Below are positions 1,625 to 23,261 of a stretch of DNA of 25,176 nucleotides, piece by piece. The notes beneath the pieces were generated by a model that saw nothing but the letters and a program-made list of their open reading frames with translations, was not told where the DNA came from and made no database searches. The position numbers and the translations under genes were made by a program. The stretch is from positions 1 through 25,176 of the IMG/VR virus record IMGVR_UViG_3300043436_001702; one strand, given 5' to 3'. Every line of letters begins with the position of its first letter. Within the stretch, counting starts at the first letter, position 1. The DNA is from a virus.

Positions 1625-4600
1625 ATGGCAACTATCGTCACCCGCGCTGGCAAAGGCTCTCCGCTAACCAACGCGGAGGTCGATGCCAACTTCAATAACC
1701 TGAACACGGGCAAGCTGGAAGTTTCCGGCGGCACGTTGACAGGTGCGCTTACTCTTCACGCGGACCCCACACAGTCGCTGCATGCTGCGTCTAAGCAGTA
1801 TGTCGACGACTTGATTTCCTCTGGTATTCACTTCCACCAGCCTGTGCGGGTTGAGTCCCCAATCAACTTGACCGCCACATACAACAACGGCACTGCTGGA
1901 GTTGGAGCGACACTGACAAACTCGGGCACTCAGGCAGCTCTGGTGATTGACGGCGTAACCGTGGCCACCAATGATCGCGTGCTGGTTTATCAGCAGACCA
2001 ACCAAACGCAGAACGGCATCTACGTTGTCACAAACACTGGCTCTGGATCGACCAACTGGGTTTTAACCCGTTCGGCTGACGCAAACACCTATATCTTTGA
2101 CAGTGCCGCCGGTCTGAGCGAAGGGTCTTCGGTTTTTGTGCAGCAAGGTACAACCGGCGCGGGTGAAACATACACCTGCAATACGTCCGGCACCATCACG
2201 TTTGGCACCACCAACATCACATTTGCTCAGATTTCCTCTGCGCAGATTTACAGCGCTGGGACCGGGCTTACACTCAGCGGCACACAGTTCAGCATTACCA
2301 ACACTGGCACTGCTGGCACTTATGGCTCTGCGTCGTCTGTACCTGTCTTTTCCACCAACGCTCAAGGGCAAGTCACAAGCGCTACGCCTACGGCTATCGC
2401 CATCGCTGCAGCAGCCGTCTCCGGCCTTGCGACTTCCGCCACAACAGACACTACCAACGCAGCCAACATCACCAGCGGCACGTTGCCTTCTGCACGACTG
2501 AGCGGCTCGTACACAGGCGTCACCGGGGTTGGTACGCTGACAGCGGGAACGTGGAACGCCAGCACCATCGCGGCTACTAGAGGTGGCACAGGCCTGACTT
2601 CTTTTGTACAGGGCGATTTGCTCTATGCAGCGTCGTCCACGACTATCGGGAGTCTGGCTGATGTTGCGACGGGCAACGCACTGATCTCTGGCGGTGTAGG
2701 CGGCGACCCTGCTTGGGGAAAAATTGGTTTAACTAGCCACGTCAGCGGCACACTTCCAGTGGCCAACGGCGGCACAGGCGCAACCGATGCTGCGGGTATT
2801 CGTACAGCCGCAGGCGCAACAACAATTGGCAGCAGTGTATTTACGCTGACCAACCCCTCGGCCATCACCTTTCCCCGTTTTAACGCGGACAACACGGTTA
2901 GCGCCTTGGATGCCGCGTCTTTTCGCACGGCAATTGGGGCTGGTACGGGAGCGGGTACAGTCACCAGCGTTACTGGCACAGCACCCGTAGTTTCGTCGGG
3001 GGGCACAACACCGGCCATCAGCATGGCGGCTGCGTCTTCCGGCGTTAACGGCTACATGACGGGCACGTACGCTACGAAGTTGGATGGTATTGCAGCCGGT
3101 GCGACCAACGTAACCAACACGAACCAACTGACAAACGGCGCTGGGTTTATTACAAGCTCGGGTACAGCTGCCAACGTGTCTGGCATTGTGGCTGTGGCCA
3201 ACGGCGGCACAGGAAACACAACAGCGCAGGCTGAAATGAACCGAGTTGCCCAAGCGGTCACTGCCGGTTCTTACCTGCGTGGTAACGGCACAAACGTGGT
3301 CATGTCCACCATCCAAGTTGCGGATGTTCCAACACTAAACCAAAACACGACGGGTTCAGCAGCTTCCTTGTCTGCCAACCTTCCCGTCTCTCGCTTAAAC
3401 AGCGGTACAAGCGCATCGGCGTCTACATTCTGGCGCGGCGACGGCGTGTGGGCTGCTGGCGTTTCTGGCCCTACAGGCCCTACAGGCCCCGCTGGCCCCG
3501 CTGGCCCCGCTGGACCTACGGGGCCTGCTTCAACCGTCCCCGGACCTACAGGCCCAACCGGCGCAACTGGACCCACAGGACCCACAGGACCCGGTGGCCC
3601 CGCTGGACCCCCCGGACCTACTGGCCCGACTGGTGCCGCATCTACTGTTCCCGGCCCGACCGGACCCACGGGAGCGACCGGACCCACAGGTCCTGCGGGC
3701 CCACCCGGACCTTCTGGCGCAAGTATTCTTGGCACGGCAAATACATGGACTGCTGCTAACCAATTTACAGGTAACGGCAACACCGCTTCTGCATCCAGCA
3801 TAGGTATGCAAGCCTATTCAACGGGCGGTAACGGCGCAATCATGGCGTTCCACCGAAGTGGTCAGTATGCCGTCAACATGGGCCTTGATTCGGATAACGT
3901 CATGCGTATTGGCGGCTGGTCTGCTTCAGCAAACCGTTGGCAGTTGGACATGTCGGGCAACGAAACCATACCGGGTCGCTTGACCGCAAACGCATGGACT
4001 ACAAGTGCGCGCAACTACTCAAACGAGTGGATTGAATTTCCGAACCACAGCGGGCTGTACTCACCGCTTAACGGAGCGCACTTCTACCCGAACAACTCGT
4101 CATATGGCGGCTGGAAAGTTGACGGATCACGCAACGGCTGGCGCGGGTTGATGTTTGAATCCGGTATGGCTTTGATGATGAACGACAACGTTTGTGGAGT
4201 CCATAGAGATGGAAGCGGTTGGCGCTTCTATGTCGATGGCAACAACCTTTATGTTGGTGGCCAACTTCAGGCTGGCTGGTCCGACACTCGCCTTAAAAAT
4301 AACCAACAACGAGTTAGCCGGGAAGATGTCTTTAGTACGTTGTCGCAGATTCGTGCACATCGTTTTAACTGGAACGAAAAGGCTGTCGAAATTGGGTATG
4401 ACGTTCAAGCTGGGGATGAAGAAATCGGTTTAATTGCGCAACACGTTAAAGCTGCGCTACCCACCGCCGCTGCCGTTAATAAGGCCGGAGCAAAGGCTGA
4501 TGATGACGGCAGTTTTGATTACTTGACAATTAACTACGACAAAATAGCCCCGTTTACGACGGAAGCGGTAAACATCCATGAAGAAGATATTGTGGCTTTG

Positions 4601-4660
4601 AAAGCTGAAGTAGCCGAGCTGCGTGACATGGTCAAAAAACTTATTGGAGAACCCAGATGA
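1625..4660 (+). CDS. Tail fibre with collagen-like stalk and C-terminal S74 chaperone domain
   Basis: This 1011-residue fibre probably binds the host surface. Its N-terminus ([15 protein letters not shown]) is a common virion-attachment motif of phage fibres. Residues about 250-600 contain fibre repeats of the type LPVANGGTG. Residues 615-698 form a collagen-like Gly-X-Y segment (GPT, GPA, GPP triplets) that should form a triple-helical stalk. Residues about 740-880 are a Gly/Asn/Trp-rich probable receptor-binding region. The C-terminus is a peptidase S74 intramolecular chaperone: it starts at SDTRLKN (residue 886) and includes EIGLIAQHV. By analogy with endosialidase, Ser886 and Lys891 form the self-cleavage dyad, so about 126 residues would be released after trimerisation. 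The start has a GAGG site at 1615-1618. The stop overlaps the next gene as ATGA. Confidence 0.9.
3467..3718 (+). repeat. Collagen-like Gly-Pro-X repeat tract with internal duplication
   Basis: The tract encodes residues 615-698 of the fibre, almost entirely Gly-Pro-Thr, Gly-Pro-Ala and Gly-Pro-Pro triplets. It is interrupted twice by ASTVP (alanines at residues 635 and 672). The two interruptions are each followed by the same [15 protein letters not shown] run, so a 37-residue unit is duplicated. The DNA copies differ at many third codon positions. The high GC and Gly/Pro codons also create long spurious frames on the opposite strand. Confidence 0.9.
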
Positions 4661-7252: not shown

Positions 7253-7761
7253 CTTCCATACAGCGCACAGGCATAGCAGTGCTGCTGGCGCTGTTGGCGA
7301 TCTTTGCAATCTACAAATACGGCTACAACAGTGGCTGGGGTGATCGGGACGCTGAGATGCAAGTGCAGATTGCGGCCAAGAACGAAGAGGCGAGAGCCAA
7401 AGAACAAGAGATGGCCAAGGCTGTAGCCGACAAAGAAACCGAACTTAGAAAGGCCAACGATGTCATCAGCAAAAAGCAAACTGATCTTAATTCTGCCATT
7501 CGTGCTGGTAGGGTGCGCCTCCCCTCCGCAAGTTGCGTACAAGCCAGCCCAAGTACCCCCGTTGCCAGCGGAAATAGCCACCAAGCGCCAAGCCAACCTG
7601 ACCGAGCGCCTGACCCAGATACTGGTCCCAGTGAGTCCGAGCGGCAAACCCTCGAACTGATCGCGCAGATTGCAGCCGAAGGGGACAGGGCCATCAACCA
7701 ATTGAATGCGTGCATCGACGCATACGACAATATGAGGAACATCATCAATGGTCAACGCTGA
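7249..7761 (+). CDS. Rz: Rz-like inner-membrane spanin subunit
   Basis: The start at 7249 overlaps the upstream stop (ATGA) and follows AAAGAGG; it gives 170 residues. One N-terminal helix anchors it in the inner membrane (GIAVLLALLAIFAIYKYGY, about residues 8-26). The periplasmic part is a coiled coil, such as KEQEMAKAVADKETELRKAN, followed by a Pro/Ser linker and a second helix. This is the layout of Rz-type i-spanins, which pair with outer-membrane Rz1 to fuse the two membranes in the last lysis step. The Rz1 gene is nested within it in another frame. It overlaps the endolysin gene by 14 bases. Confidence 0.85.
   Translation: MTSIQRTGIAVLLALLAIFAIYKYGYNSGWGDRDAEMQVQIAAKNEEARAKEQEMAKAVADKETELRKANDVISKKQTDLNSAIRAGRVRLPSASCVQASPSTPVASGNSHQAPSQPDRAPDPDTGPSESERQTLELIAQIAAEGDRAINQLNACIDAYDNMRNIINGQR
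7460..7660 (+). CDS. Rz1: Rz1-like outer-membrane spanin lipoprotein, nested in Rz
   Basis: The gene lies wholly inside Rz in the +1 frame, as Rz1 does in phage lambda. The 66-residue product has a signal sequence (MSSAKSKLILILPFVLVGC) with the lipobox LVGC, so Cys19 should be lipidated. The mature part is short and Pro-rich (CASPPQVAYKPAQVPPLPAE), as expected for an o-spanin that spans the periplasm to meet Rz. The combination of nesting, lipobox and proline content makes the call firm although the start codon is not experimentally fixed. Confidence 0.85.
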   Translation: MSSAKSKLILILPFVLVGCASPPQVAYKPAQVPPLPAEIATKRQANLTERLTQILVPVSPSGKPSN

Positions 7762-8380
7762 ACAACTCAATAAACTCCACATCGGCCCTCAGTGGGTCGA
7801 TGCGCTAAACGCCACCTTTGAGCGATTCAACATCCTCACGCCTCGTCAGCAGGCTGCGTTCATCGGCCAGTGTGGCCATGAGAGCGCCAATTTTCGTGTT
7901 CTGGAGGAGAACCTCAACTACAGGGCTGCAACGCTGCTCAAACTCTTTCCCCGTACGCCACGGCGCACATGGGGCTTCACGCCTGAAGAGGCTGCTGCAT
8001 ATGAACGACAACCAAAGAAAATTGCAAACCGCATTTACAGCAACCGTATGTCAAATCGGGACGAGGCTTCTGGCGATGGGTATCGTTTTCGTGGCCGTGG
8101 TTGCATTCAGTTGACTGGCACTGCAAACTACCACCATGCAGGCAAGGCCCTCGGCGTGGACTTCATCATGGAGCCTGACCTTGTGGCTACGCCTCAGTAC
8201 GCTGCCTTGACCGCTGGGTGGTTCTGGAACACCCAAAAGCTGAACGACTTGGCTGAGTCTGGCAACAACTTGGCCCTCACAAAGCGGATCAACGGCGGCA
8301 CCATAGGACTGGATGACCGCATCATTCACACGAACCACGCATTGGCGGTACTGAGCGATCCCAACTACAATCTGGCCTAG
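7748..8380 (+). CDS. Endolysin, glycoside hydrolase family 19 type
   Basis: The 210-residue protein should cut the glycan strands of peptidoglycan from the inside. It has the GH19 lysozyme/chitinase-like features: CGHESANF with Glu45 and a second acid Glu54 nine residues later (LEEN), which match the catalytic spacing of phage GH19 endolysins, and RGRGCIQLTGTANY at residues 115-128, the family's substrate-cleft signature. No signal peptide or anchor helix is visible, so it needs a holin to reach the wall. There is no separate wall-binding domain. A GAGGA site at 7734-7738 precedes the ATG. It ends the lysis cluster. Confidence 0.9.
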   Translation: MVNAEQLNKLHIGPQWVDALNATFERFNILTPRQQAAFIGQCGHESANFRVLEENLNYRAATLLKLFPRTPRRTWGFTPEEAAAYERQPKKIANRIYSNRMSNRDEASGDGYRFRGRGCIQLTGTANYHHAGKALGVDFIMEPDLVATPQYAALTAGWFWNTQKLNDLAESGNNLALTKRINGGTIGLDDRIIHTNHALAVLSDPNYNLA

Positions 8381-14827: not shown

Positions 14828-15793
14828 ATGGGCGGTAAATCTAGTCCTCCACCACCAGACTATTCTGGGATGGAAGCTCTCGGGCGAGAGCAGCTTCAGT
14901 TTGCTCGCGACCAGTACGCAGAGATGAAGCCATTCACCACCCGGTTGGCAACATCCTTGGCAGACGCTCAGCAAGAGCAGATGGCGCAAGCCCGTGATTA
15001 CTACGACTACCAGCGGGACACTTTCCGGCCAGTTGAACAAGGTCTAGTTAGACAGGCGCAGGAGTTCGACACTGAGGCTTACCGCCAGCAGTTGGCGTCT
15101 AAAGCTATGGCAGACGCGGCCAAAGCATTCCAAGGCTCGCAGGGCGTGATGATGCGTGAAGCTACACGCCGTGGGGTCAACCCAGCCTCTGGTGCTTTCG
15201 GTGCTGCGTCTAACGCCAACGCGATGGGCCTTGCAGCTATGCAGACCGGAGCTGCTAACCAAGCACGCCAACAAGCGGAACAACTGGGCTTTGCCCGCAA
15301 ACTGGATGTCGTTGGCCTTGGCCGTAACCTTGCAGGTGCTTCAACTGCTGCGTATGGCGGTGCCACTGGCGCAGGTCAAGCTGCGGGCAGTACGGCGATG
15401 TCTGCTGGCAATCAGCGCATGACAGGTATGGCACAGTCTGGTCAGACAATGGGTAGTGTTCTGGGCTCACAGACTTCCGCATACAACGCTGGCATGCAGC
15501 AGCAAGGGCTTGATGTTGGCGGGCTGCTTACTGGAGCTGCTAAGGCCTACACGGCTTTCTCCGACCGTCGCTTGAAACAAAACATTGAGCTGGTTGGCCG
15601 CGATGAACGCACCATGCTGCCGCTGTACGAGTTCGAGTACATCAACGGTTCCGGTCGCCGCTTCCTCGGCGTGATGGCGCAGGATGTGTTGGAGACTTAC
15701 CCAGACATGGTGTTCACAATGCCCGACGGCTTCATGGCAGTAAATTACGCCGGTCTCGGCATGGAAATGGTGGAGGTCAGCAATGCGGCTTAA
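14828..15793 (+). CDS. Internal virion protein with C-terminal S74 self-cleaving domain
   Basis: An AAGGA site at 14816-14820 precedes the ATG. Residues 1-20 are Pro/Gly-rich (MGGKSSPPPPDYSG). Residues about 20-130 are a long charged helix region, and 150-235 are Gly/Ala/Gln-rich low-complexity, as in membrane-interacting ejection proteins. The C-terminus is a short S74 domain: FSDRRLKQNIELVG, LYEFEYI, RRFLGVMAQDVLETYP. Ser245 and Lys250 keep the cleavage dyad spacing, so about 77 residues could be removed. This is shorter than in typical fibre chaperones. The genes that follow are ejection-type proteins, which places it in that group; a T7 gp14-like role is possible. It overlaps the next gene by 11 bases. 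Confidence 0.75.
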   Translation: MGGKSSPPPPDYSGMEALGREQLQFARDQYAEMKPFTTRLATSLADAQQEQMAQARDYYDYQRDTFRPVEQGLVRQAQEFDTEAYRQQLASKAMADAAKAFQGSQGVMMREATRRGVNPASGAFGAASNANAMGLAAMQTGAANQARQQAEQLGFARKLDVVGLGRNLAGASTAAYGGATGAGQAAGSTAMSAGNQRMTGMAQSGQTMGSVLGSQTSAYNAGMQQQGLDVGGLLTGAAKAYTAFSDRRLKQNIELVGRDERTMLPLYEFEYINGSGRRFLGVMAQDVLETYPDMVFTMPDGFMAVNYAGLGMEMVEVSNAA

Positions 15794-17339: not shown

Positions 17340-20300
17340 ATGTCCGCCTTTGACAAAATTCGCCAAGCCTTCCCTGAACTAGCAAACGCCAGTGATTCGG
17401 AAGTTCTTGGTGAAGCGGCACGCCGCACTGGTTCCTCCGTGGCGCAACTCTCCGACACACTGGGCATTGCACCTCGCAGTACTTTGGGTGAGATCGGTAG
17501 GCAATTTGGTGCTGGTCTTACCGTAGACGCCCCTCGGATGGCGGGCCAAGCCCTGAAGTACTTCTCTGATGCGGGTGGCGAGCGCGTCGGTGAAGGTGCA
17601 TTCCCCCGCCTTGGTAGGCCCACAGGCCTTGAGCGCCAGTATGGCGTACAGATTTCTGAGGCTGCGCCCGGATACCGGGCTGGCCAAGCACTTGTTGAAT
17701 CCGCTGACGTACGCGGTCGCGGCACAGAAGCCGACTTACGCGGTCGTGGTTTGCTCGGTGAAGCACTTGTTACTGGTGCGCGTGGCGTAGGTGGTATCGT
17801 TCCTACACTCGGTCTTATGGCTGTGCCCGGGGGTCAAGTTTTAGCCCCAGCACTGCAAGCTGGGCTGTTCGGCGGCTCGTCTGCACAGGACACATACGAG
17901 AAACTTATCGAGCAAGGTATTGCCCCAGCTGATGCTGAAGCTGCTGCACGCCGAGTGTTCGCTGTACAAGGCCTTGGTGAAGGTGTTGCCACTGCTGGTC
18001 TTGGTGCGTTGTTCCGCCCTGCGGTAGCCGCAGCCCGTGGCGCACGCTCTACCTCTGGTGTGGCGCAGTCTCTGACAGATACCAGCGTGCTTCGCCCCTT
18101 TGCAAGAGGCATGGCACTGAACGTCCCGTTGCAGGCTGGCACAGAGGCTGCACAGGATGTCGGCACAGAACTTATCGAGCGTTCGTACGGCGCAAGACCC
18201 GAAGATGTTGGCGACATAGCACGTGGCTCTGCGCTCGCTGGCGCTGGTATGACACTGCTGTTGGGCCCACTTGCGCTGGGTGGCTCTATCTCTCGCTCTC
18301 GCAACGCTGAACGGCTGCAACAGGCTCTGTACGACCCACAAGTAGCACCAGAAGTACGCGAAGCTGCACGTCAACAGGTTATGGAAGCTGCTCGCCAGCA
18401 AGGTGTGGCCCCAGCCAATGCAGAAGAATGGCTCCAGCGTCAGCTTCGCGAAGACGCAGCCAACATTGCGACTGTGCAGCAGCAGGAAGAGCAGACGCTT
18501 GATGCTCTGACTGAGACACCGTACGCCGACATTGCCTACGCACTGCGCGATCCTGAGTTGTCTGCGGCTATTTCCGAAACTGACCGGGTCAAACTGTTCG
18601 GCACTCTGGAGACATTGCAGGCTGCTGACACACCCGCTGAGCAGCGCGATGCTTTGCTGGCGGACGCAAACGAGACCATTGGTCGCTACGTTGCCGCACT
18701 CCAAGAGCCCGGCGCAGAGACAGACCTGACACAGCCGTTTGGCCTGCAACGCCAGTCTGTGCTGACTACCCCACAACCTGTGCAAGAGCTTAACCTTGCT
18801 GGTGGCTTGACGCAAGTCCAGACCAACATCCCTGACAGCTTGGCCGGATACCAAGCCCCCGCCCCCGCAGGGCGCGAAATGGTACGCACACAGGCTCCCG
18901 CACCCGTTGAAGGTGTCGAGGGCATCGAGGCTGTACGCCCCGGCGTTTTCCAAGTGGCACAGCCATTGCAGCAAGTTGGCACTTTCGTTGGTCCACGTGC
19001 ACCAGCAGCCCCCGTTACTCCTGTCGGCGCTCCAACTGCAGTTGCCGCCGCTTTGCCCGCTGCACAACCTGCAGCGGGCGTTTCTTCTACCGCAACTACC
19101 GGAGCACCCAGTGGCACTCAAGCCTCTAAAGCCGTCAAAGCAAAAACGCAGCGAGCGAAAGCACCAGCAGCCCCTGCAGCCGCAGTCGTAACTGAGGAAG
19201 ACAAGCCGCTGGCCAAACTGCTTCAGGATGTTGACTCGGTTGACGTTGGCAATCCGCTGCCAGCTTCTGTGCGTGGTGCGCAAACTGTTAAGGCTCCCGG
19301 TCGTACATCGCTTAGCACTGAAATGCTCAAGAAGGTGCGTGACGCCCTGCTCCGCCCATCGGGCAAAGTAGGCAAAGGTGCTGGCGAAGCAGAGCAGCGT
19401 ATCGTCGACGCTCTTCGTAACTTCGCTGGTGCGTACAAGGCATACTCTGATCAAGGTGGTCAGGCAGTGTCGCGCCGCAACAAGCTGCCTAAATCCAAAG
19501 CCGCTGCAGATTTTGCACAAGAACAAGTCTCTGCCGTTGAAGTCCAAGCTGCGAACGTGCAAGCTGCTCTGGCAGAACTGGGTCAGGCTGTCGGCGGCAA
19601 CGCCAAGGACATCGAAGCTGTTGTGCGTCTGGTTAAGGACATGGTTCAGGGCAAGATTGTTGCCCCCGGCAAAACACGCGCTGAAGTCATTCAGGCTGGC
19701 AGACAACTCGATACTATGCTGTCACAGGCATGGGCTGCTGCCAAGCGCGAAACCTTTATGCGTGAGACACCCGATGTCGCTGATGTGCGCGGTGGCGTTG
19801 TTCGTGTTGCGAAAGAACAACAGGGCGAAATATCCCCACTTCAGAAGGCTGCAACAGAAGGCGTCGCTAACCCAAAGGGGAAGGGTGAACGCCAGTTCGG
19901 CCTGCAGGCAGTCTTGCAGTACATCCGCAACTCTGGCACCCCGTTTGAGCGCATGCTGGCCGGAACCTTGCGTGACGTGATCAACGACCAGATGAACGAT
20001 GTGAAGCTGGAGTTCATCACAGAGGGCGACCCACGCTTCGACCCCAAGACCAACACGGTTTTTCTGCGGGCAAATGAGTCCCCAGAAGTGGCTTTGCACG
20101 AAGCCCTGCACGCTGCTCTGCAGTCGTTCATCTACAAGAACCCCAAAGACCCTATGGTCATGCAGCTCAAGCGTTCGCTGAAAGCTGTCGTTGGGTACAA
20201 AGGCGAACTCACTGGCAAAGCCAAGGAAGTCCAAGACCTGCTGAAGAAGCTCGTAGCGGACAAGAACGAACTGGATGCTGTGCTGGAATTGGTGTCGTAC

Positions 20301-23261
20301 GGCACCACGCTCAACGACTTCCGCAAGGCGCTGGAAGCTATGCCGTCTAAGGGTGTACCAGCTTCCTTCCGCGACTCTGTGAGCAACGTCTGGCGCTACA
20401 TCAAGGCTGTCATGGCCCGTATGCTGAATAAGCCAAACACAGTGGCTGCAGACGTGCTTGACTCAAGCCTCGCCCTGCTCGAAAAAGCCAGCAAAGAGGC
20501 ACGCGTGCCGAACACAGGCAATGTCCTCGAAGCCGCAGTGCAAACCAGCAAGCCCGTCAGCAACGAGAAAGCCGCTGCAGCTCTGGGCGTCCCTGTCGTG
20601 GATTACACCCGCTGGGAAGAGAAGAACCTCGTCAACGTATTCAGCACACAGCGTCTGTTTGAGGCAGTCGGCTGGAGCAAGGAAGGCATCGTTGGCCAAG
20701 GTGTTGAGAAGCTGGCGGGCTGGGCTCGTGAGACAGCGAAGAAATACCCAAGCGCAGAGATCGTTGCTGGTTTGCTGAACTCTCGCTACAACGTCAACCG
20801 TGACGTCTCCGACATCCAAGACAACTACAAGTTCGACAAGAACGTTGGCTACCAAGTGGCTGAACGCATTGCCAACTACATCACTAGCCAGCCAGCAGCG
20901 CAAGTCAACGCTGTGTTCGACTACCTCGACGGCAACAAACGCGCACTGGATGGTGTGGATGACGGCGGCAAGCTCAAGGGCTTGGCTGACAACATGAGAA
21001 AGTGGTTCGACATCTACGTGGCTGAGCTGTCACCTGTCGAGCAGAAGTTCTTCAACACCCGCAAGTTCTCAGAGAACCTGCTGTTTCCATCTCGCACCGA
21101 AGAGATTGCTCGCAACCAGTTCGGCCTTGGTAAGATCAACGCCGTGCTCGGCAAGAAGTCGATATCTGAGTCCGAGATTGACCAGAACTGGTTTACCAAG
21201 ACTGCAGATGGTGATGTTGTTTTGGACGGCGATTTCTACCAAGTGTTTAAGACCGCCAACACACTCAAGGGTACGCCAGAGTCTGCAGGCTTTATGTCTG
21301 CGGCTAAGTTCAAAGAGCTTGGCGAAAAAGACCCCATGGGCTTCTCTGTCGATACGACACGCCGCTGGGTTTTGGAAGCTGGCGACGCAGACAAGGGTAA
21401 GTTCAAGTTCACCACGAACACAACTGCGCGTGAAAAGATTGCCGACGAGAAAGCTGATGATCTGGCAAACGCCCTGCGTAACACCATGGCTGCGCTGGCC
21501 AACAATTACGCCAGCAAGAACTTCATCAGTGCCATGGCCAAGATGGGCAACGAAGATAGCCCATACCCACGGGTTGCTTTCGACAACGTAGCGCAGATCA
21601 ACGAAGAGTACGGCACCCAGCTGCAAGAAGGTGACGATCGTATCCTCAGCGTGTCTGAGGAGATGTCGCGCTCTGAGAAGACCCGTGACCTGTATCGCAT
21701 GTCCGGCACTTGGGTGCAGCTGCCAAAGTCCGATGTGTACGGCGATCTTGCTGGCAAGTACCTGCCGGGTCCAGTGTGGAACTCGATGATCGACATGTAC
21801 TCGCGTCAGCCAGTCATTGACATCCGTGCAGTCAACAGCACGATGCGTTGGTTCAAGAAGACCAAGACCACGCTCAACCCCGGCACGCACGTCACCAACG
21901 CGGCCTCGAACATGACTATGGCGATGATGCACGACATCTCGTTCAAGACAATGCGCGATGCCACCAAGCTGTTGTACCGCTATGAGTTCAGCCCCAAATC
22001 GCTGACTCCGCAAGAGCGCACCATGGTCGAACAGTTCATCAATTCTGGTGCCATGCTCGGAGACTTCTCCAGCACAGAAGTGAAGGAAGCCCTGTACCAA
22101 GCGCAAGAAGACAACCTGCGCAATGGCAACGACAACTCGCTGCTGACCCGCGTTGCAGGCTTCCTCGGCATTGAGAAGTCTAAAGCTGAGTTCCTTGCGA
22201 AGTACGCTGAGAAAGGCAAGCAGGGTGCCCTGACAGCCGACGAGGTGATGACACAAATCTACGCCTTTGAGGATAACGCATTCCGCATGGCGGCTTTCAT
22301 GAAGACGGTTGGCCAAGAGCAGATGAAGGCCGGTGCCAATGCACCAACGCCAGAGATGTTCCGCACTGCGGGCAAGTTTGCGCTTGCCGCGTTTGGTGAC
22401 TACGACATCGACTCTAAGGCTGTGAAGGCATTGCGCCAGACAGTCATGCCGTTTATCTCGTGGGGTTACGCCATGGGTCCGATCATCGGGCGCATGATAC
22501 TGATGCAGCCTTGGAAGATTGCCAACATCTTGATGGCGTACTACCTGCTGGAAGCTGCAATGAGCGGCGCTGCCGATGGAGATGACGAAGAGCTACGCAG
22601 GTCCGGCCCTGAGAGCATCCGTGAGCGCATGTTCTTTGGCGCAGTTGGCCCGTACATGCACGTCCGCATCCCATTCATGGGCGATGACCAAAATCCTGTG
22701 TACTACAAGCTCGGCGACTACTTCCCTGTTGCGTCGATCACCAAAGGCTTGCCAAACGGATTTATGGGCCAGTCGTGGTTCCCTAGCATGATCACCCCAA
22801 GCGGCCCGTTTGTGTCTGTGATTGCCAGCACTGTGCTCGGCGTAGACACGTTCACAGGCAAGTCCATCCACCAGCCAACCGACACAGGGTGGGACAAGCT
22901 GTGGAACGCGACCAAGGCAGGCTACGACATCTTCACGCCACCAGCGATCAGCAGCAGACAGATCAGCCGCGCCAACGACTTCTTCGAGGGCAAAGAGGGA
23001 ATCACAGGCGCTCCTCCTTCCGGGCTTGTGTTTGCACGCTCCTTCGGCCTCAAGTTGTATGATTACAACGTCACAGAAGAGGAAGCTAGACAAGACTTCA
23101 ACGCCAAGCGTGTGGAACGTGAGTTTAAAGCCGCAATGACCAAGGCCAAGCGCGACGAGTATCGCAAGGGATACCCTGACTACGAGGCACTGGACAAAGA
23201 GCTTGAAGACCTGCAAACTCGCATGGAAAAAGAGATCGCCAAGAAACGAGGAGAAGAGTGA
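17340..23261 (+). CDS. Giant internal virion/ejection protein with HExxH metallopeptidase-like domain
   Basis: The ATG is preceded by GGAG. The 1973-residue product has Gly/Ala-rich hydrophobic stretches at about 145-185 and 300-320. A Pro/Ala-rich linker spans about 500-640. A domain around residues 890-1060 has the zinc-peptidase motif HEALH (His920, Glu921, His924), with Glu983 in LELVSYGT as a possible third ligand. From about 1500, WFKKTKTTLNPGTHVTNAASN resembles the C-terminal region of large polyvalent phage proteins. A hydrophobic patch near 1700-1740 (WKIANILMAYYLLEAAM) and a charged coiled-coil tail follow. Size and place match a gp16-like ejected protein, but no lytic transglycosylase motif was seen; the metallopeptidase could process virion or host proteins. 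Function is inferred. Confidence 0.75.
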   Translation: MSAFDKIRQAFPELANASDSEVLGEAARRTGSSVAQLSDTLGIAPRSTLGEIGRQFGAGLTVDAPRMAGQALKYFSDAGGERVGEGAFPRLGRPTGLERQYGVQISEAAPGYRAGQALVESADVRGRGTEADLRGRGLLGEALVTGARGVGGIVPTLGLMAVPGGQVLAPALQAGLFGGSSAQDTYEKLIEQGIAPADAEAAARRVFAVQGLGEGVATAGLGALFRPAVAAARGARSTSGVAQSLTDTSVLRPFARGMALNVPLQAGTEAAQDVGTELIERSYGARPEDVGDIARGSALAGAGMTLLLGPLALGGSISRSRNAERLQQALYDPQVAPEVREAARQQVMEAARQQGVAPANAEEWLQRQLREDAANIATVQQQEEQTLDALTETPYADIAYALRDPELSAAISETDRVKLFGTLETLQAADTPAEQRDALLADANETIGRYVAALQEPGAETDLTQPFGLQRQSVLTTPQPVQELNLAGGLTQVQTNIPDSLAGYQAPAPAGREMVRTQAPAPVEGVEGIEAVRPGVFQVAQPLQQVGTFVGPRAPAAPVTPVGAPTAVAAALPAAQPAAGVSSTATTGAPSGTQASKAVKAKTQRAKAPAAPAAAVVTEEDKPLAKLLQDVDSVDVGNPLPASVRGAQTVKAPGRTSLSTEMLKKVRDALLRPSGKVGKGAGEAEQRIVDALRNFAGAYKAYSDQGGQAVSRRNKLPKSKAAADFAQEQVSAVEVQAANVQAALAELGQAVGGNAKDIEAVVRLVKDMVQGKIVAPGKTRAEVIQAGRQLDTMLSQAWAAAKRETFMRETPDVADVRGGVVRVAKEQQGEISPLQKAATEGVANPKGKGERQFGLQAVLQYIRNSGTPFERMLAGTLRDVINDQMNDVKLEFITEGDPRFDPKTNTVFLRANESPEVALHEALHAALQSFIYKNPKDPMVMQLKRSLKAVVGYKGELTGKAKEVQDLLKKLVADKNELDAVLELVSYGTTLNDFRKALEAMPSKGVPASFRDSVSNVWRYIKAVMARMLNKPNTVAADVLDSSLALLEKASKEARVPNTGNVLEAAVQTSKPVSNEKAAAALGVPVVDYTRWEEKNLVNVFSTQRLFEAVGWSKEGIVGQGVEKLAGWARETAKKYPSAEIVAGLLNSRYNVNRDVSDIQDNYKFDKNVGYQVAERIANYITSQPAAQVNAVFDYLDGNKRALDGVDDGGKLKGLADNMRKWFDIYVAELSPVEQKFFNTRKFSENLLFPSRTEEIARNQFGLGKINAVLGKKSISESEIDQNWFTKTADGDVVLDGDFYQVFKTANTLKGTPESAGFMSAAKFKELGEKDPMGFSVDTTRRWVLEAGDADKGKFKFTTNTTAREKIADEKADDLANALRNTMAALANNYASKNFISAMAKMGNEDSPYPRVAFDNVAQINEEYGTQLQEGDDRILSVSEEMSRSEKTRDLYRMSGTWVQLPKSDVYGDLAGKYLPGPVWNSMIDMYSRQPVIDIRAVNSTMRWFKKTKTTLNPGTHVTNAASNMTMAMMHDISFKTMRDATKLLYRYEFSPKSLTPQERTMVEQFINSGAMLGDFSSTEVKEALYQAQEDNLRNGNDNSLLTRVAGFLGIEKSKAEFLAKYAEKGKQGALTADEVMTQIYAFEDNAFRMAAFMKTVGQEQMKAGANAPTPEMFRTAGKFALAAFGDYDIDSKAVKALRQTVMPFISWGYAMGPIIGRMILMQPWKIANILMAYYLLEAAMSGAADGDDEELRRSGPESIRERMFFGAVGPYMHVRIPFMGDDQNPVYYKLGDYFPVASITKGLPNGFMGQSWFPSMITPSGPFVSVIASTVLGVDTFTGKSIHQPTDTGWDKLWNATKAGYDIFTPPAISSRQISRANDFFEGKEGITGAPPSGLVFARSFGLKLYDYNVTEEEARQDFNAKRVEREFKAAMTKAKRDEYRKGYPDYEALDKELEDLQTRMEKEIAKKRGEE

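Follow-up and report, generated by a model that had tools for sequence, protein, structure and literature searches.

A repeated peptide motif flanks the zincin-like domain of a giant phage protein and suggests sites of self-cleavage

The window, the whole analysed stretch of 25,176 nucleotides, encodes a giant protein of 1973 residues (17340..23261, plus strand) that is probably injected into bacteria by an uncultured phage. A zincin-like metallopeptidase domain lies inside this ejection or polyvalent-type protein, and a short motif, here called the seam, is found near each edge of the module that holds the domain. The positions of the two seams hint at where the protein may cleave itself into functional pieces. 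Even credence is given here to the reading in which this is a virion-type polyvalent or ejection protein whose internal zincin (His920, Glu921, His924 and Glu983) recognises, and most likely cuts, the seams of its own chain. The domain is ordinary in kind, because zincins in phage 'polyvalent' virion proteins are already known from the main text of Iyer 2017 (PMC5512222); it is the anatomy around the zincin, with a repeated seam at the module edges, that appears to be new.

The giant protein and its relatives

The giant ORF is labelled an ejection protein because of its gene position and its relatives. Before it lie a gp14-like ORF (14828-15793, 321 aa), which matches PHROG 8003 (virion structural protein, 4e-34) and PHROG 4287 (DNA ejection protein, 3e-11), and then a 511-aa ORF without a family. 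The N-terminus of homolog L088 matches PHROG 6958, a virion structural protein, at 7.9e-10, and we infer a virion location for the giant protein. Its 1973 residues and its place after the gp14-like ORF are those of a phage polyvalent protein, that is, a large multidomain protein in a virion or late gene context. The domain combination of the polyvalent network is displayed by homologs, with ART-PolyVal in 13 of the 14 insert-bearing ones; the window protein itself has no ART.

Whole-protein searches with hmmscan (Pfam, PHROGs and NCBIfam) and with phmmer against PDB sequences gave zero significant families, and HEALH thus escapes the annotation libraries. The earlier note had seen no muralytic module, and this was borne out: a Pfam search of the 1973-aa protein gave no family at E<=1, and the lytic transglycosylase of T7 gp16-like ejection proteins is among the families not found at that threshold. 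A GH19 endolysin is encoded separately from the giant ORF, at 7748-8380. Zero Pfam or PHROG polymerase families were found in the giant protein, which by this measure is not an N4-like virion RNA polymerase.

Several features of the surroundings were also observed. The C-terminus of the protein in the gp14 position (14828-15793) is a Peptidase_S74 intramolecular chaperone domain (Pfam 3.6e-8), better known from tail fibres and spikes. A probable tail fibre of 1011 aa with a long collagen-like GPTGPTGP stretch is located at 1625-4660 of the window. Residues 1-200 of the giant protein (within window 17340-18540) are 44% identical to the near relative L003, though residues 401-1973 are 92-98% identical; L004, elsewhere more distant than L003, equals the window at 86% over residues 1-200, displaying an N-terminal swap.

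Relatives were collected through the conserved C-terminal region (residues 1380-1973; 21477..23258, plus strand), an independent probe whose profile excludes the zincin and which found 113 viral contigs encoding a relative; the best 80 of these were kept. A 200-aa query returned 9 loci. The best 80 loci comprise 64 complete ORFs and 16 that are 5'-truncated; HExxH is still visible in five of the latter and absent from the remaining part of the other 11, among which the longest parts, L057 and L091, both begin downstream of the motif position. Removal of 18 proteins at >=90% identity from a set of 67 left 49 non-redundant sequences, of which one is the window protein itself; 46 of the others were reached via the C-terminal region and two (L017, on the contig of L006, and L020) via the search that used the zincin. 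In tblastn searches of 50,697 phage records P0001 and L103 gave no match, L088 gave one weak C-terminal match and the 200-aa zincin region gave two chance-like matches at E<=10. A pattern scan of bacterial genome contigs gave 115 pattern matches and zero relatives. The seam motif described below marks an uncultured-phage family (113 contigs) without a close relative in the searched phage records and bacterial genomes. A distant relative by the C-terminal region is L106 (5135-11635 of MW202615.1, 2166 aa), which is annotated as 'DNA repair protein' and holds HELGH; this annotation looks doubtful.

Conservation and predicted fold of the zincin-like domain

HEALH occupies residues 920-924 (20097..20111, plus strand), and Glu983 (20286..20288, plus strand), the putative third zinc ligand, sits in ELVSYGTTL, 63 residues past His920. 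In the non-redundant set His920, Glu921, His924 and Glu983 are invariant (49 of 49); they correspond to the HExxH and, judged by sequence and predicted secondary structure, to the third-ligand glutamate of an MA-clan zincin, and they make up four of the 22 invariant columns of the 459-residue module (residues 625-1083). The giant protein has six histidines in all, and HExxH arises in 20 of 20,000 composition shuffles. HEALH together with Glu983 is a real feature, beyond chance. The earlier note had placed HEALH at these residues with Glu983 in a later helix, and the ORF coordinates, the invariance and the helix predicted in both models agree with it. Loss of the motif in close homologs, which the same note had named beforehand as evidence against a peptidase, was looked for; HExxH is kept in all 49 and in all 64 complete proteins found by the C-terminal profile among the best 80 of 113.

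Selection on the coding sequence gives a mixed picture. The pN/pS of the zincin segment is low between the window and L028 (0.029), L032 (0.135) and L031 (0.129), and is the lowest of any segment in these three comparisons, the 10-residue seam segment excepted. Between the window and L034 it is higher in the zincin segment (0.453) than in the C-terminal part (0.352), and therefore extra constraint on the zincin segment is not general. From the conserved residues we infer that this domain would bind zinc and act as a catalyst.

Two AlphaFold2 models were built with a 49-row alignment, one of residues 625-1083 (mean pLDDT 85.6) and one of residues 846-1074 (mean pLDDT 90.4). The latter is the zincin-like domain as modelled (19875..20561, plus strand), seam 2 included, and it is preceded by a helical region that extends from seam 1 to the zincin (residues 648-845; 19281..19874, plus strand). 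The domain model displays a helix, three strands, the HExxH helix (70-88) and a helix at 132-145 that contains Glu983 (model residue 138). HExxH lies in a helix in both models, and in the longer one Glu983 (model residue 359) is inside helix 353-366. The model thus gives a zincin layout at high prediction confidence.

Structural neighbours were sought with VIA, whose Z values of 5-9 are middling. Among the 50 matches listed, 17 fall within lethal factor range 562-777 (Z 4.8-7.1), presumably its catalytic domain, 15 involve PPEP proteins (Z 5.2-5.7) and 8 involve others, among them IrrE/PprI, ArdC and BlaR1; PPEP, IrrE, ArdC and BlaR1 are taken here to be zincin-type. The 8 of the 50 that match the N-terminal region of lethal factor were left uncounted as zincin support. 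So were the two rows of N4 vRNAP, the best of all (Z 9.0 and 8.4), because the matched range, from residue 2373 on, misses the N4 HELVH at 2228 of the same numbering. Foldseek alone found no match in the PDB at E<=0.001, and its matches to solved zincins were at E 0.05 or weaker. Searched in BFVD, the longer model matched best to a protein of an uncultured phage with the title 'Large polyvalent protein associated domain' (E 3.4e-20, TM 0.69, 38% identity), and another title was 'Putative RNAP associated protein fused to zincin protease'. Tox-MPTase4 (PF15640) matches 44 of the 49 members weakly (best 1.5e-4) and stays below its gathering cut-off, the window domain scoring 14.2 bits against 25. 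A profile of the module searched with hmmsearch against PDB sequences returned coiled-coil and helical matches only and was set aside. The four invariant residues, the predicted layout (pLDDT 90) and the structural neighbours point to the zinc-peptidase fold that the earlier note had proposed.

A seam motif at both edges of the module

Near each module edge, within variable linkers, lies a copy of the common motif [N]-x-L-x-A-x-V-x-[S/T/G]. Seam 1 reads NPLPASVRG (residues 638-646; 19251..19277, plus strand) and seam 2 reads NVLEAAVQT (residues 1061-1069; 20520..20546, plus strand), the latter at the point where relatives carry a cassette; both are candidate recognition or cleavage sites. Two of the 22 module columns that do not vary in the 49 sequences are the seam leucines, 640 and 1063.

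The relation between the two seams was measured with a profile built from seam 2 only, the tested protein being left out, with which about 1,950 positions were ranked in each protein. Seam 1 is among the five best positions in 45 of 49 proteins; for the top 20 the count is 48 of 49 (0.48 expected by chance). Because homologs are not independent, all alignment columns were scored too. Across the 1,663 columns filled in at least 40 rows the overall mean is -15.9 bits (SD 4.0); seam 1 has a mean of 6.5 bits, the next column has -0.2, and seam 1 is the sole other column that stands out. With a profile of both seams, 29 of the 49 proteins have a seam 1 of at least 15 bits, and 46 of the 49 have one of at least 12 bits. 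At the 15-bit threshold zero sites were found in the 738 other ORFs of the 49 loci (207,073 residues; mechanical ORFs from both strands, not gene calls), and shuffled proteins likewise gave zero. The motif was not found at high score in the distant MPTase relatives L026, L027 and L106. Processing of capsid proteins, one of the roles offered for the protease in the earlier note, is unsupported because the candidate recognition motif is absent from these 738 neighbouring ORFs; as a version of the protease role, processing of the ejection protein by itself would be the better-supported one.

An optional cassette closed by a further seam

Identity compared segment by segment points to a cassette. 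In L006, L008 and L009 residues 611-1065 are 56-84% identical to the window and the next segment is 28-30% identical. An insert between the zincin and the C-terminal part is present in 14 of 49 proteins, giving a spacing of 554-700 residues versus 387-437 without it. ART-PolyVal (PF18760, E 1e-11 to 5e-26) makes up the insert of 13 of these 14 proteins; that of L089 has no Pfam match, yet a seam closes it. A further copy of the motif, seam 3, stands at the end of the insert in all 14 (17.4-23.6 bits) and lies outside the training of the profile. Among the 35 proteins without an insert an extra site of at least 15 bits is seen in L066 only, near its C-terminus. A search for YHG[TS] in the 49 proteins located ART-like sites in the insert-bearing ones only; the Pfam scan covered some of the other 35.

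Of the 14 proteins with an insert, 10 have a seam 2 that stays under 15 bits. The median of seam 2 is 11.4 bits with the insert versus 18.4 without (Mann-Whitney p 0.0006, a value that ignores relatedness). The pattern is consistent with insertion of a cassette on the upstream side of an existing seam and, should seams be cut, with an ART remaining attached to the zincin in certain lineages. Mapped on a tree built from the C-terminal part, the insert, present in 14 rows, requires 12 changes (mean 12.2 after shuffling), and well-supported branches force 11. Its presence differs within the sister pairs L043/L044, L037/L038, L094/L095 and L074/L077, among others, where about 160-310 residues, nearly always an ADP-ribosyltransferase, come and go at one point of the giant protein.

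Self-cleavage and alternative readings

In the self-cleavage reading the zincin would recognise the seam at each edge of its own module and would cut its own chain there; in relatives a further seam would serve at the far edge of the optional ADP-ribosyltransferase cassette. The cuts would yield an N-terminal part, the protease with or without the ART, and a C-terminal part, the chain presumably being split before or after ejection into the host. This reading is drawn because the glutamate is invariant, the motif is restricted to one protein, the seams stand at module edges and a copy comes with each new module. Several observations weigh against it: seam 2 is ordered in the models; N4 vRNAP, although it has an HExxH domain, is packaged uncut according to the main text of Iyer 2017 (PMC5512222); the structural matches are middling; L026, L027 and L106 show no high-scoring motif; and seam 2 is weak beside most inserts. 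The order of seam 2 (block pLDDT 86, with a two-residue beta-bridge L1063-E1064 in both models) suits a seam that is an uncut structural or docking peptide: a short capping strand of the zincin that recurs, letting each module dock on it or on an adjacent subunit within the ejection complex; as modelled, seam 2 may simply be part of the zincin domain. The invariant leucine in a hydrophobic pattern suits packing, and seam 1 is disordered alone (pLDDT 33-43 in the model of 625-1083), as a docking peptide could be. Docking alone leaves unexplained the fresh copy that closes every cassette (14/14) and the decay of the zincin-side copy before the insert, and it is regarded as rather doubtful.

The zincin could also be an effector that cuts host proteins after ejection, in which case the seams would be incidental or would serve a different protease. 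For conflict systems, zincin effectors have been proposed in the main text of Iyer 2017 (PMC5512222), and the ART cassette next to the zincin in relatives suits an attack on the host. The seams, however, are tied to module edges of the same chain and a host target is not known, which makes this reading unlikely, and a role in the host and self-cleavage are compatible rather than exclusive. Still less probable is a zincin without catalytic activity whose task is packaging or assembly, a task that the matching region of N4 vRNAP may have: according to the main text of Iyer 2017 (PMC5512222) encapsidation requires the N4 MPTase region, and N4 vRNAP is packaged without being processed, but the catalytic Glu921 and the three ligands are invariant in 49/49, and a pure scaffold would not need Glu921. 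Seams that act as DNA-level recombination sites or are recent duplications for module exchange are very improbable. Exchange is real at this point, as the insert changes on the tree indicate, and identity drops sharply at residue 1065. In contrast, identical residues of seam copies share the same codon in 93 of 260 cases versus 88.8 expected from codon usage; the amino acids stay and the DNA drifts, therefore selection acts on the peptide and not on the DNA, and this origin is disfavoured.

Self-cleavage, if it occurs, would explain how an injected protein could take up effector cassettes and still work. With the seam motif, two precise candidate sites are available within a small module (residues 625-1083), for which E921 is the control mutation.

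Comparison with known systems

No domain is more common than the zincin in phage polyvalent proteins, according to the main text of Iyer 2017 (PMC5512222), where self-processing or autoproteolysis is proposed for these zincins. The present domain resembles those described there in its HExxH helix, the following Glu helix and the three-stranded sheet, in being embedded in a very large protein of virion context and in having an ART neighbour in relatives. It differs in that a P1 or N4 relative of the present protein is undetectable by sequence. The words 'linker' and 'short motif' have 0 occurrences in that main text, and its passages on polyvalent zincins mention no repeated seam and name no cleavage sites for them. 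No paper on such a seam was found among open-access full texts on zincins, polyvalent, ejection or internal virion proteins, ART and crAss.

The virion RNA polymerase gp50 of Escherichia phage N4 is likewise a giant ejected protein with a HExxH zincin-type domain, as its C1 domain is presented in a structure preprint (PMC12633501). In contrast to N4 gp50, the present protein has no recognised RNA polymerase, and the N4 HELVH at 2228 is outside the matched range, 2373-2615. The domain model thus adjoins the HELVH domain of N4 gp50 (L107), matching from residue 2373 (Z 9.0) and not covering it; the match is possibly to a second, degenerate zincin-like domain, or reflects a shift in numbering. 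Lethal-factor and PPEP-type zincins are free or secreted enzymes. The predicted fold of the present domain resembles theirs over ~125-160 residues (Z ~5-7) at 7-17% identity.

Pseudomonas phage F116 gp60 (YP_164324; L108) has a zincin motif followed by an ART in one chain, as in the relatives described here, and is 30% identical to L083 over 38% of that query. Unlike the present family it has two HExxH motifs and other seam letters, and its C-terminal half matches a DarB-like antirestriction PHROG. FSR flanks the ART on both sides in F116 and in USP_25 (L111) and occurs at three sites in Dfl-JY45 (L110). FSR is possibly the seam of another lineage, having been seen by eye, without statistics, in 3 of 12 proteins; cr130_1, which reads with 31 stops, was left out. 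We tentatively suggest, with somewhat less than even confidence, a lineage-specific 'cut here' code in which module-edge seams are read by the zincin of the same chain, so that cassettes could be gained and lost and still be released separately. The letters of such a code may be [N]-x-L-x-A-x-V-x-[S/T/G] in the present family and F-S-R in F116, USP_25 and Dfl-JY45.
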